This document shows positions 9,436 to 23,823 of a stretch of 64,000 nucleotides of DNA, one piece after another. Position 1 is the stretch's first letter, and the number at the start of each line of letters is the position of its first letter. This DNA comes from Arenicellaceae bacterium (GTDB lineage: Bacteria; Pseudomonadota; Gammaproteobacteria; Arenicellales; Arenicellaceae): the NCBI GenBank assembly GCA_029246505.1, contig JAQWNC010000006.1:1-64000 (forward strand), written 5' to 3'. The translations under genes and the position numbers were made by a program. The notes beneath the pieces are model-generated. The model saw only the letters and a list, made by a program, of their open reading frames with translations, had not been told where the DNA came from and searched no databases.

Positions 9436-10557
9436 TTAATCTGGCCTTTCGTTACTGACACCACCCAACTCCACACATCCGTATTCTGGCAAGGCAATGC
9501 TAGTCCTGTTCCACGCATTAGTACCTGTCACTGGTTTTGCTAAATACTGCGGGTCGACCGCCGAATAGGCTCGGGTCAATTGACCTGTTTCTGACAGACT
9601 CAAACGTTCTGTGATAATCATATCTTCGCTATGTAATAAACCAGGATGCGGAACCAACACACCTGCTTTAAACCTAGTGGTTTCAATGACCAGAACATTA
9701 TCTTCATACCAACCAACAGAGTGCCCGGTCATACTTGGTTCTATATCGCTAGGGTGCTCGCGAGTATCCATATTTATGACTCGCACTGTGTCCATAAACT
9801 CATGCTTGATAACTATTTGATCACCAGACTGAGTGACTTCTGAAATACCAGAAGGTTCGCTCCAACCTCTTAAGATACTGGATGGGCTGCACTCTAGCGC
9901 TGGGTCATCAAAACGCTGGTCGTACGTCGCCGATGCTGTTCTGCCAGCCTCGGTCACTAAATCTCCATAACGACTATCAAAAAGTGCTGCCTGGTCTGCA
10001 GGCGTACCACTTCCGGCAGGACCACCAGGTCGACGATTACGCGGTGCAGTCTGCCAGGTACCAAAGAACGAATTTTTATCCGGATCAACATCAGGGACCG
10101 CCACTTCTTCAACGCTAACAACTTCTACCTCTGAACCTGCAGTTATTTCACCATTGCGTGCTAATTTAGTTCCGTCGCCTAGTTCAGCACTCCGAAAAGA
10201 ACAACCGAATGGATCCCGACGTGCTGCAATTCCCCTTATCGTTATTTTAGTACCAGGCTTTAGTAATCCCTCACTCCACCCAACTCGACGATAATTAGAT
10301 GCGGCGCCAAACTCACAATTCCACGCCTCGGTACTTCCATCTGCACCGACAACATCCAGATAAACCCAGGCATGCGGATTAACAAATCTAAAATTTGTCA
10401 CCACACCTGTAATGGTAAGTGTCTTACTTGCATCGAAATGTGGTGATGAAGAATGATGCGCATAGCTGGAGGTCATACCAAATAGCAGCATCGTACTAAT
10501 CGATAATACCGTGCCTGCAGTTGTTAAAAATTGTTCCCTGATTGTTGCTATTTTCAT
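9436..10557 (-). CDS. DUF6152-family secreted protein, copy 1
   Basis: 373 residues. A signal peptide ends at SSYA, so the predicted mature protein begins His-His (HHSSSPHFDASK). An N-terminal module of about 100 residues (ITGVVTNFRFVNPHAWVYLD, then WNCEFG and KPGTKITIRG) looks like the small OB-fold-type domain of DUF6152. After a variable linker comes a second conserved module: PALECSPSSILRGW, RVINMDTREHPSDIEPS, TGHSVGWYEDNVLVIETT and HSEDMIITERL. Function is unknown. Three paralogues occur in the window (13858, 22765 and 60628). It is divergent from the dienelactone hydrolase gene across a 264-base AT-rich region. Confidence 0.85.
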   Translation of the reverse strand: MKIATIREQFLTTAGTVLSISTMLLFGMTSSYAHHSSSPHFDASKTLTITGVVTNFRFVNPHAWVYLDVVGADGSTEAWNCEFGAASNYRRVGWSEGLLKPGTKITIRGIAARRDPFGCSFRSAELGDGTKLARNGEITAGSEVEVVSVEEVAVPDVDPDKNSFFGTWQTAPRNRRPGGPAGSGTPADQAALFDSRYGDLVTEAGRTASATYDQRFDDPALECSPSSILRGWSEPSGISEVTQSGDQIVIKHEFMDTVRVINMDTREHPSDIEPSMTGHSVGWYEDNVLVIETTRFKAGVLVPHPGLLHSEDMIITERLSLSETGQLTRAYSAVDPQYLAKPVTGTNAWNRTSIALPEYGCVELGGVSNERPD

Positions 10558-11760: not shown

Positions 11761-12025
11761 GATCAGCACTGCCTGCACTTACACACTGATAAACTCATTG
11801 CGTAACGAACGTCCGCTTTATACTCAAAGCGGTTATTCGTAATGTTAGAGATAATGTGCCGGTATCCCATGTTTGCTACTCGCAGAGATAGTTAGATTTC
11901 ACCCAGTTGAGGCTATTTTCAAAGGAAGTGATGAGGTTTTGGGCTGGCTGATACTTATTGATATGGGGAAATAGAGAGTTTATGCTTCCTATTACTTCGT
12001 AAAATTCTCAGGGGAGTACAATATT
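11761..12025. other. Intergenic region upstream of the arylsulfotransferase gene
   Basis: Apart from hairpin copy A I see no coding sequence here. AGGGGAG at 12010-12016 is a good ribosome site for the TTG at 12026. A promoter must lie here for the plus-strand gene, since the strong terminator at 11721-11760 separates it from the dienelactone hydrolase gene, but I cannot place -35/-10 boxes with confidence. Confidence 0.5.
11806..11840. repeat. Dispersed hairpin repeat, copy A
   Basis: Stem CCGCTTT/AAAGCGG with loop ATACTC, with an outer ACGAA/TTCGT pair. The GCTTT-containing half and the flanking cgaa/ttcg are shared with the hairpins at 13751, 15055 and 16334. This copy is the most divergent of the four. 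Confidence 0.5.
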
Positions 12026-13591
12026 TTGAATACCACGTTACAACGTCTTTCAATTGCTACCGCTTCCGGATTTCTCGTACTGACGGCGGGTTCCCTCTCC
12101 GCCTAGGAGTCGTCACGAGGTCCCACCGAGCTGATTTACTGGGATCAGGAAAAGGCGGAGCCAGGCTACTCGTTCATCAGAACGCGTGTGCGTGGCATCG
12201 CCGGCTCGTATCTGGTCGATATGGCCGGGGAGGTTGTTAACTACTGGGCGGGATTCACGGACGCGTATCTACTCGAGGACGGTACGATGATCGGAGCGAA
12301 AGGGCCAGCGCACTTCGTCCAGGCGGACTGGGACGGCAACGTTCTATGGGAGTACGAAGAGACGCGTGAGAACTATCACCCGCACCACGATTTCTTAAGA
12401 ATCTACAACGCCGAACTTCAGAACCGAACCCTGTTGTTCATCGCTAACGTGGATCTGACTCATGAGGATGTCATCGCACTGGGCGCCGATCCGGACGCGG
12501 TGGAACGTTACGAGGGTACCCAGATGGACGCCATCGTCGAGGTGGACCGAAATGGCGATGTGGTTTGGGAGTATCACTTCACTGACCACCTAGTTCAGGA
12601 CCTATTGTCGAACGCCCTCAACTATGTCGGCAGCGGCCAGACGATCTCCGATCATCCGGGCCGGCTCGATATCAACTGGGGTACCGTGTCACGGGATTAT
12701 CTGCACCTGAATGGCATCGACTACAACCCGGCGAGCGGCCATCTCGCGATCAGTTCGAACAGAACGCATGAGATCTACATCGTGGATCACGACGGCACGT
12801 TCATCGCCGGAAATCCTGCGGAGAGCATGCGCCTTGCGGCGAGCGAAGCTGGAGATCTTCTCTACCGCTTTGGTAACCCAGCCAACTACGGTCAAGGCGA
12901 GTCCCCGCACTACGCGAAGAAAGACTGGTCTCTAGAAGAATTCTCGGGGCACAAGCAGGTGGGTGGCAATCACGACATTCAGTGGATAAAGGACGGACTC
13001 CCGGGTGCCGGTAACCTTCTGCTGTTTAACAATGGCTTGTCTGTTCCACGGGGCCCTGGTGACTCCGATCCCCAGTCGGAACTACTCGAACTCAACCCTT
13101 ACCTCGATGCCAACGGCGTGGTTAGGGACGGCTACGTAAACCCGCCCGACGCAGGATATACGCCCATCATGCCAGGCACCGACAGTTCCGGCGTACCAGC
13201 CACGCGGCAGTTCTCCGAGCAGATCGTTTGGATGTACCACACGACAGATGGCTTCAACAGTCATCACGGTTCCGCCGTGCAGCGCCTGCCGAACGGCAAC
13301 ACAATGGCACAATTGGCTCGCGTTGGTCGTCTACTGGAAATCGCGCCCGACGGGGAAGTTGTTTGGGAGTGCGCCAACCCGCTGACCAACGCCGGGATTT
13401 TGAAGACGATTGTTACTTCCGAGCATGAGAATATTTTCGGCGGCTGGTCGCCGCTGCGCTATCTCGAAGGTTTCCCGGGTCTTGTGGGAAAGGATCTCTC
13501 GCCGAAGGGGCTGGTCACCGACTTTCACTCAGCAACCAATCCCCGCTCCGGCGCTGAGCTAGAGCGGGCGACGGAAGAGAAAGGGTATTGA
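12026..13591 (+). pseudogene. Arylsulfotransferase (ASST) family protein, interrupted by an in-frame amber codon
   Basis: Reading from the TTG at 12026 gives a signal peptide of 26 residues (LNTTLQRLSIATASGF, then LVLTAGSLSA). A TAG at 12104-12106 follows directly, and the same frame then continues ESSRGPTELIYWDQEKAEPG into a full-length ASST-like propeller. The body has LHLNGIDYNPASGHLAISS, GGNHDIQWIKDG, LLLFNNGLSVPRG, HHGSAVQRLPNGNTM and GRLLEIAPDGEVVWE, which match arylsulfotransferase/ASST repeats. A Gln codon CAG changed to TAG would explain the stop. Without suppression only an unexported protein could be made, for example from the GTG at 12188 (467 residues). The gene is clearly GC-richer than its neighbours, which suggests transfer. 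Family role: moving sulfate between phenolic compounds in the periplasm; activity here is doubtful. Confidence 0.8.
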
Positions 13592-13743
13592 AACTAAGTC
13601 GGAAAAGAGTTCGACCCTTAATTAACCGTTTTGGCGAGACATTAAATAAATCCGAAGGCATTATGCTAGGCAAACCACGTGAAATACCGCCAGAGACTCG
13701 CAAAGGCAAATGGATTTTCGTTGAATGCCCGGTCTATTCATGA
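13588..13743 (+). CDS. Small open frame after the ASST gene, possibly not real
   Basis: A 51-codon frame opens with a TTG that overlaps the ASST stop codon and ends at a TGA at 13741-13743. Its translation is basic at the start (LKLSRKRVRPLINRFGETL) and ends KGKWIFVECPVYS. I recognise no family. It has no clear ribosome site. It could be a coupled small gene, a remnant, or chance. Confidence 0.2.
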   Translation: MKLSRKRVRPLINRFGETLNKSEGIMLGKPREIPPETRKGKWIFVECPVYS

Positions 13744-13750
13744 ATGATTA

Positions 13751-13784
13751 CGAATGACGGCTTTGGGCAATAAGCAGTCATTCG
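13751..13784. repeat. Dispersed hairpin repeat, copy B
   Basis: The most regular copy. The stem is CGAATGAC with GCTT, paired to AAGC with GTCATTCG, with one mismatch between the segments and an 8-base loop TGGGCAAT. The same loop and GCTT/AAGC core recur at 15055 and 16334. Confidence 0.75.
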
Positions 13785-13857
13785 ATTATTGGAATATATG
13801 CTTAACACGACTTATACTTTGGTCTAATTGTTTAATATTCAAACCATAGAAATTCAT

Positions 13858-14895
13858 ATGAAACGATCTAATCTGGCCTTCGGACTTATCTTTACTTTAT
13901 TGTCGACAGCAGCTGTTGCCCATCATTCACCGTTTATATTCTTTGACTCAACGCAAACGATTGAGATTGAAGGCGAAATCACCGGGATAGCCTGGCGAAA
14001 CCCACACATATCGTATGAGCTGCGCTCACAGGAGGCAGACGGAAGTATGCGTGTATGGGAGGTCGAGGGGCTCTCGCTCAGCTGGTTGAAGAGAATGAAT
14101 CTTACGCGGGAGTCAGTAAGTGTTGGCGACCAAGTGCGAGTTTTCGGTTGGCCGGGGAAGGGTGGCGGAGCGGATATATTTGTACTTAATATGCTTATTT
14201 CAGATGCTACTGAGATTGTATTCATACCCGGCCGCCAACCACGTTGGTCCAGTGACATCACTGGTGATACAGGTAAGTGGATGCTTACCGAAGCTGATAT
14301 TGTAGCGTCTCCCGAAGCTACCAGCATCTTCGATACTTGGAGCCACAGTCTTGGCATTAATGGTGAAGCACAAATGTTTGGTGGTTACCCCTTTAAGTTA
14401 ACTGAGGCCGCAGCTTCGATACGGGCAAGCTATCAACTCTACGATAATCCAATTTTCGAAGGTGAATGTGTCCACAAGGGGATGCCGACAATCATGGAGC
14501 AGCCATACCCAATGGAGTTGGTGGATAATGGCGAGGTTATTACTGTTCGAATGGAAGAGGGCAATGCGTTACGCGAGATTAGGATGAGCGAGGCCATCGA
14601 TGCCGCAGACCTCACTGCCAAGGTCATGGGTCACTCTTTTGGCAAGTGGGAAGAAAATTCTTTGGTTGTTACCACTGTGAAGAGTAGTTGGCCGTACATC
14701 GACATGACCGGCGTTCAAAACAGTGAAGATGCGGTCTATGTAGAAAAGTTCACGCTCATAGCAAACGGAAAACGTTTGAACTACACGATGACCATCACTG
14801 ATCCTGAAATTCTTGTAGAACCTATTTTGTTAAATAAATCTTGGCTAAGAATAGAAGGTATCGAAGTCGAACCCTTTGACTGCCAGTCTGGGTAA
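13858..14895 (+). CDS. DUF6152-family secreted protein, copy 2
   Basis: The ATG at 13858 is chosen because the signal peptide (MKRSNLAFGLIFTLLSTAA) starts there. A TTG 30 bases upstream would only add a polar tail. Cleavage after AVA leaves a mature His-His N-terminus (HHSPFIFFDSTQ). The first module has IEGEITGIAWRNPHISYELR and WEVEGLSLSWLKR. The C-terminal module has EGECVHKGMPTIMEQPYP, REIRMSEAID, MGHSFGKWEENSLVVTT and EDAVYVEKFTL. It is the most divergent of the four copies in the window. Function is unknown. It stands alone between two hairpin repeats, downstream of the broken arylsulfotransferase. Confidence 0.83.
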   Translation: MKRSNLAFGLIFTLLSTAAVAHHSPFIFFDSTQTIEIEGEITGIAWRNPHISYELRSQEADGSMRVWEVEGLSLSWLKRMNLTRESVSVGDQVRVFGWPGKGGGADIFVLNMLISDATEIVFIPGRQPRWSSDITGDTGKWMLTEADIVASPEATSIFDTWSHSLGINGEAQMFGGYPFKLTEAAASIRASYQLYDNPIFEGECVHKGMPTIMEQPYPMELVDNGEVITVRMEEGNALREIRMSEAIDAADLTAKVMGHSFGKWEENSLVVTTVKSSWPYIDMTGVQNSEDAVYVEKFTLIANGKRLNYTMTITDPEILVEPILLNKSWLRIEGIEVEPFDCQSG

Positions 14896-22764: not shown

Positions 22765-23823
22765 TTACTCTACTGTCCGGTCGTCACAGGCATAAGGTTC
22801 ATATGGATAGTCCGCTAAAAACACAGTATCTTCGCCGGTTTGCTGCTGCCCTGGATTCCAAAATAGAGGATCTTCTCCAACATAACTTCGAACCAATGCA
22901 CTACTTTCTGCATCGAGTACAAAGCGCTCGATAGCATGAAATTCTTCACTGTGTGTGCCTCGGCGATTGGAAACAACGCTAAAACCGACAGTATCTACAA
23001 CCAAGACCCCACCTTCCCATTTACCGATAGAATGCCCTGCCCACGACGGTTCCAGATCCGCAGGGTGCTCTGACATATCCATATTAATAGTACGAACGGT
23101 ATCCATAAAACCGTATCTGAGTATGATTTGATCTTTTTCCTGCTCGATACGGTTCGCCGGTTGATCGAAAGTCCAATCCGAGAAAAAATCTCGAGGGCTG
23201 CAGTCCAAACGGCCTGCAACACCTTCCTCACTCGCGCTTGCTATTTCAGCGGCCGCCGCTTCACCCGCAGCAGAAAGTTCGATTTGAGGCCCACGTCCTC
23301 GCCCTCCTCGTGGCGGACGAGGCGCCGCATTCGGACCACTTATAGCACCAACTAAACGCTGGTTCGCTGCCCAATCCCCAGCAATGTATGGATCACCCCA
23401 GGCAGTAGTTAACGGCCGTGTTGTTTCTGGCTCCAATTGATTCTCTTCGATCTGCGCATAGCGCTCAATCGGCTCGCCACCATTGAATGCAATAGTTTCG
23501 ATATAGCACCCATTACCTTCGGCACGCGACATTATTCCAACAATATCTACTTCCGTACCATTGGTGAACATTTCCTCTGTCCAACCAGAGCGTTTTAAAA
23601 CTGAAGAAGCACGCATCTCACAATGCCAGTTAACCACTTCACCAGTCTCAGTAGTTACGTCCAAATAGACATATGAATGTGGATTAACAAATCCGAGATC
23701 GGTTACCACCCCACTAATTTCGACTATTCTGCTGGCATCAAACTGGCTGCTAGTACCGTGATGAGCCAGCAATCCGCCAGGGTGTAGAGCAATTATAGTT
23801 ACCAATGTCAGAATTTTTTTCAT
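22765..23823 (-). CDS. DUF6152-family secreted protein, copy 3
   Basis: 352 residues. The signal peptide (MKKILTLVTIIALHPGG, then LLA) is cut just before HHGTSSQFDAS, again giving a His-His mature N-terminus. Module 1 has VVTDLGFVNPHSYVYLD, WHCEMRASSVLKRSGW and GTEVDIVGIM. A Pro/Gly/Arg-rich linker (PRPPRGGRGRGPQ) follows. Module 2 has RLDCSPRDFFSDW, YGFMDTVRTINMDMSEHP, AGHSIGKWEGGVLVVDTVGF and HSEEFHAIERF. Function is unknown. It is directly upstream of the sulfatase at 21121 and may be co-transcribed with it. Confidence 0.85.
   Translation of the reverse strand: MKKILTLVTIIALHPGGLLAHHGTSSQFDASRIVEISGVVTDLGFVNPHSYVYLDVTTETGEVVNWHCEMRASSVLKRSGWTEEMFTNGTEVDIVGIMSRAEGNGCYIETIAFNGGEPIERYAQIEENQLEPETTRPLTTAWGDPYIAGDWAANQRLVGAISGPNAAPRPPRGGRGRGPQIELSAAGEAAAAEIASASEEGVAGRLDCSPRDFFSDWTFDQPANRIEQEKDQIILRYGFMDTVRTINMDMSEHPADLEPSWAGHSIGKWEGGVLVVDTVGFSVVSNRRGTHSEEFHAIERFVLDAESSALVRSYVGEDPLFWNPGQQQTGEDTVFLADYPYEPYACDDRTVE

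Follow-up and report, generated by a model that had tools for sequence, protein, structure and literature searches.

An in-frame TAG at the signal-peptide junction of an arylsulfotransferase-family gene is probably a very young loss-of-function mutation

Introduction

Orthologous in-frame stop codons have already been described in bacterial genes, with a proposed role as expression dampers or switches; among the described cases is a Paenibacillus sulfotransferase family with TAG/CAG (Belinky et al., 2021, PMC7918605). Readthrough of UAG in E. coli reporters is temperature-dependent, with means between 0.01% and 0.8% (PMC11126739).

Here we describe an arylsulfotransferase (ASST)-family gene interrupted by TAG in an Arenicellaceae bacterium (GCA_029246505.1), found within the first 64,000 nucleotides of contig JAQWNC010000006.1 (forward strand; hereafter the window). 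The locus resembles the cases of Belinky et al. (PMC7918605) in that a single in-frame TAG interrupts a gene that is otherwise intact and selected, with one relative carrying TAG at the matching alignment position and others a sense codon. It differs from them in that the one second case is ambiguous and the sense codon is Tyr TAY rather than CAG, and the enzyme is an ASST (PF05935), unlike the PAPS sulfotransferase of Paenibacillus. With ordinary bacterial nonsense pseudogenes the locus shares a single base change, absence of amino-acid decay, redundant paralogues, apparent foreign origin and the presence of other broken genes in the genome; what sets it apart is a stop that coincides exactly with the signal-peptide junction and takes the place of an invariant residue.

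Results and discussion

Layout of the interrupted gene

Direct reading of the sequence bore out the architecture described in the initial annotation, namely a ribosome-binding site, a TTG start, a 26-residue signal peptide, TAG and a full ASST body of 494 open codons, all in one frame:

12011..12017, + strand: Shine-Dalgarno-like AGGGGAG (read directly)
12026..12103, + strand: TTG start and signal peptide, MNTTLQRLSIATASGFLVLTAGSLSA; signal peptides of relatives end at the same junction, before Tyr
12104..12106, + strand: in-frame TAG at a family-invariant Tyr, the first residue past the predicted cleavage site (18 homologues and 6 additional pattern sites have Tyr; the relative L017 has TAG too, at a contig edge)
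12107..13591, + strand: mature body of a PF05935 (arylsulfotransferase-family) protein, beta-propeller-like and undamaged, with stop TGA (profile match, fold search, alignment)
13858..14895, + strand: neighbouring gene for a DUF6152 protein (PF19649; profile match)

The Shine-Dalgarno-like element is intact and lies about 9 nt 5' of TTG 12026, which is the sole usual start codon in frame ahead of the TAG. Directly after the TAG the sequence begins ESSRGPTELIYWD, and the frame stays open to the TGA at 13589-13591. One other in-frame TAG in the window (63320, - strand) was set aside as an ordinary terminator between two genes.

The body scored 49.8 bits against PF05935 in a profile search (cut-off 24.2), and the 494-codon frame immediately behind the stop, this match and 75-77% identity to full-length relatives are together not a product of chance. 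The three best fold matches of the predicted model were Cpz4 (9kf6, 9kf4) and ASST (4p07), at E values of 2e-13 to 5e-12 and TM scores of 0.47-0.50 for a model of middling quality (pLDDT 72.8), in which the first residues were poorly placed (pLDDT 45). The body is an arylsulfotransferase-family protein, possibly with the six-bladed propeller of AssT and Cpz4, and the family alignment has several invariant His and Arg. Like PAPS-independent arylsulfate sulfotransferases (PF05935; 4p07, Cpz4 9kf4/9kf6), it combines an above-cut-off family match, an export signal and a predicted fold resembling a beta-propeller; relative to the solved enzymes it is a distant member, with 14-17% identity in the fold alignment.

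The interrupted codon encodes tyrosine in relatives

A homologue search permitting any residue at the interrupted codon listed 18 homologues in which a Tyr codon (TAT or TAC) immediately follows the predicted signal-peptide cleavage site; they include L015, L019, L082, L083, three tandem copies in L016, the intact same-genome paralogues L002 and L003, and more distant copies. Pattern scans accepting TAT, TAC, TAA and TAG returned 20 sites in the order of genome G109 (19 TAY and one TAG) and three in the order of genome G112 (all TAT). Six of the TAY sites were new, bringing the number of Tyr sites to 24. In the family alignment no column before this Tyr is invariant, and the residue opens the conserved N-terminal motif of the mature protein, YExxRGPTEL. 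In a nonsense pseudogene a stop replaces the sense codon of functional relatives, and here TAG stands against Tyr at all 24 sites. Because relatives read TAT or TAC, the lesion is a third-position transversion (T/C to G). TAG in relatives, which the initial annotation had named as a refuting observation, was seen in a single ambiguous case, L017, at a contig edge.

The three tandem genes of L016 (2418-6139) belong to a Rhodospirillaceae-labelled MAG, and G112, the MAG behind L019, gives 33 ASST matches. A search of viral contigs yielded no relative.

A probable young null allele of an apparently acquired gene

Third-position GC content (GC3) of the interrupted gene was 0.686, compared to 0.42-0.44 in two paralogues from the same genome. 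At the thresholds used, searches of the congener, of the sampled family and order, and of 369 genomes sampled from the class gave no comparable or close ASST homologue, and in the congener a ferritin-like gene (named by eye), with no ASST, follows the dienelactone hydrolase homologue. This foreign composition, together with absence from the congener's spot and from sampled kin, makes the gene look horizontally acquired, probably from another bacterium.

None of the 79 family-invariant columns of the body is changed, no second lesion was found in its 1.5 kb, and pairwise dN/dS was 0.08-0.14, a value that averages the whole branch, with dS near saturation. An intact body and low dN/dS indicate that any neutral period since the stop arose has been short, and recent loss still fits. 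Further lesions and relaxed constraint, which pseudogenes usually show but a very young one need not, were both absent from the body. If the gene is a null allele, this state appears compatible only with very recent loss.

We consider it likely that one nonsense mutation has very recently turned a horizontally acquired, redundant arylsulfotransferase-family gene into a null allele. A gene for an exported protein of this family would have been acquired horizontally, and a very recent change of TAT or TAC to TAG would then have struck the invariant first mature Tyr. Translation from TTG 12026 would yield the 26-residue signal peptide and halt, giving little or no enzyme. Two intact full-length paralogues (C8:80389-81873 and C20:45612-47024) could render the gene dispensable and would make its loss tolerable. 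We infer from these data that the stop is real in cells, is recent and abolishes function, and that the paralogues cover that function. The initial annotation had listed a fresh pseudogene among its options, and this is the one best supported; its proposed route, a C-to-T change in a CAG codon, does not agree with the TAT and TAC of relatives. Read as a null allele, the locus would be an ordinary snapshot of gene loss following horizontal acquisition, in a genome retaining several arylsulfotransferase-like genes.

Three observations count against a null allele. Absence of a second lesion is also predicted by readthrough or by a base-calling error; the stop has hit a specific codon, to which 2 of the gene's 172 single-step routes to a nonsense codon lead; and L017 has TAG there too.

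Other nonsense-interrupted genes in the genome

A coding-score survey of 1.60 Mb (61% of the genome), with candidates chosen from its list by eye, identified eight further apparently nonsense-interrupted genes, an undercount in that the survey depends on codon usage of the native kind and did not pick up the ASST:

L153:1831 (G000 C7:41831), + strand: glutathione S-transferase, a single TAG after 38 codons, N- and C-terminal domains otherwise intact
L153:17684, - strand: PolB-like exonuclease, TAG and TAA
L133:19235, - strand: DnaQ-like exonuclease, TAA
L149:11512, + strand: MBL-fold protein, TAA
L173:17684, + strand: thiolase, TAA
L198:19443, + strand: SLT transglycosylase, TAG
L162:11200, + strand: LysR regulator, TAG
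L179:17238, + strand: alpha/beta-hydrolase-like frame, TAA (recognised by eye, without a Pfam match)

With the ASST included, about five TAG and about five TAA lesions fall in nine genes, which makes the ASST one of a background set. We saw no amber-specific excess among the broken genes, and the similar counts of TAG and TAA indicate that nonsense loss is ordinary here rather than specific to amber codons.

Base-calling error and the second TAG

The strongest of the alternatives, which we still judge unlikely, is that the TAG reflects a consensus error, a miscalled base or a base from a minority strain, and that in the cells the codon is TAT or TAC and the enzyme is made and secreted normally. 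The otherwise perfect body and the 30-contig draft state of the genome would suit such an error. The site itself, however, lies deep in the interior of a 164 kb contig, and the PolB-like exonuclease, with both TAA and TAG, exhibits multi-lesion decay of a kind unlikely to arise by error.

The only other TAG at this codon is also relevant to this alternative. L017 (VYEH01000006.1, MAG SB0676_bin_28; 77% identical) has its TAG at nucleotides 4-6 of a contig covered at 4.7x, an error-prone position. Using the first 150 bases of this contig, we sought its upstream neighbour in the bin and recovered only the self match. In the tree, L015, which has TAT, is sister to L017 with support of 100/99, and the window sequence falls outside the pair. 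A TAG inherited in common with L017 is therefore unsupported, and the L017 TAG, if real, arose twice or reverted. Since this codon offers 2 of the 172 opportunities, a second independent nonsense mutation here has a chance of about 1%, so that the coincidence calls for an error at the contig edge or for some non-random cause.

Readthrough and restart of translation

It is also doubtful that the gene works because a tRNA for Tyr, Gln or Lys occasionally reads UAG as a near-cognate codon, so that a little full-length enzyme is exported and the stop serves as an expression damper or a reversible switch. Purifying selection on the body over the whole branch without an added lesion, recurrence of TAG in L017 at this codon and the non-zero readthrough of UAG in the E. 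coli reporters (PMC11126739) are consistent with such decoding. Yet a recent nonsense mutation would give the same dN/dS, the L017 TAG sits at a contig tip and its sister has TAT, which gives an inherited stop no support, and TAG and TAA are about equally frequent among the broken genes of this genome.

The decoding apparatus likewise argues against readthrough. A suppressor tRNA, for which the initial annotation had proposed a search, was absent: none of the 35 tRNA genes found with the Rfam tRNA model, all of them typed, has a CUA anticodon, in a set that may be incomplete because it contains no tRNA-Ile(GAT) although the genome is 97.5% complete. Stops of the 1034 ORFs of at least 200 aa in the 1.60 Mb surveyed were TAA in 484, TAG in 356 and TGA in 194. 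TAG is thus the second most used stop and a normal terminator in this genome, which rules out genome-wide reassignment and speaks further against the suppressor-mediated readthrough originally suggested. Folding of the window, L017 and the TAT/TAC relatives revealed no conserved readthrough-stimulating RNA structure after the stop. The 103 nt around the stop in the window folded with a z of -2.49; when the stop and preceding codons were omitted, the 94 nt past it gave z -1.58 in the window versus +0.23 in L017, and neither L017 nor the TAT/TAC relatives showed the window's fold.

A bolder form of this idea, which we regard as highly improbable, is that in this ASST clade UAG at the invariant first mature Tyr recurs as a functional, leaky stop that lets few chains be finished and exported in two independent lineages, those of the window and L017. 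If reads confirmed the TAG in L017, a sponge-MAG relative, this would be a rare recurrence of a stop codon exactly at the export junction, and would offer a testable model of stop codons as expression dampers for secreted enzymes.

Restart of translation within the body, which would yield a cytosolic enzyme lacking the signal peptide and hence the protein in the wrong compartment that the initial annotation envisaged, is scarcely credible: the stop does lie in an SD-like TAGGAG with CTG 12131 and GTG 12188 in frame beyond it, but no in-frame ATG, GTG or TTG occurs within 26 codons of the stop, the first usual start, GTG 12188, is 27 codons into the mature protein, lacks a Shine-Dalgarno element and would delete the conserved YExxRGPTEL, and all relatives keep the exported form.

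Neighbouring genes, promoter-like site and dispersed repeats

Genes for DUF6152 proteins (PF19649) recur near the ASST gene, at 9436-10557, 13858-14895 and 22765-23823 of the window (the last recognised by eye), and L017 has a DUF6152-like gene, also recognised by eye, 3' of its ASST at about 2120-2490. This recurrence around ASST genes in the window and L017 suggests a functional link.

The ASST gene lies between copies of two dispersed repeats, the first of which bears a promoter-like site:

11822..11992, + strand: dispersed intergenic repeat copy bearing the ASST promoter-like site (matches elsewhere in the genome)
11958..11986, + strand: promoter-like TTGATA-N17-TATGCT, within the repeat copy (consensus scan)
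13733..13819, + strand: second dispersed repeat copy, 3' of the ASST gene (matches C10:52815, C2:1549, C1:57317, C8:2626 and others)

The promoter-like site is intact and agrees with the consensus at 9 of 12 positions; the scan found 3 sites in the region against 1.8 expected, weak evidence by itself. The first repeat has copies in G000 at C3:80894-81065 (88%), C3:71451-71548 (89%), C7:151867-151974 (87%) and C1:6906-6965 (85%). It is up to 170 bases long, with copies in L125 (those at C3:71451 and C3:80894), L157 and L164 and the promoter-like site at its end, and its copies sit 5' of several genes, many of which apparently encode exported proteins. The repeat is possibly a mobile promoter module. 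The second repeat, of 30-90 bases, occurs at a dozen or more sites in the genome.
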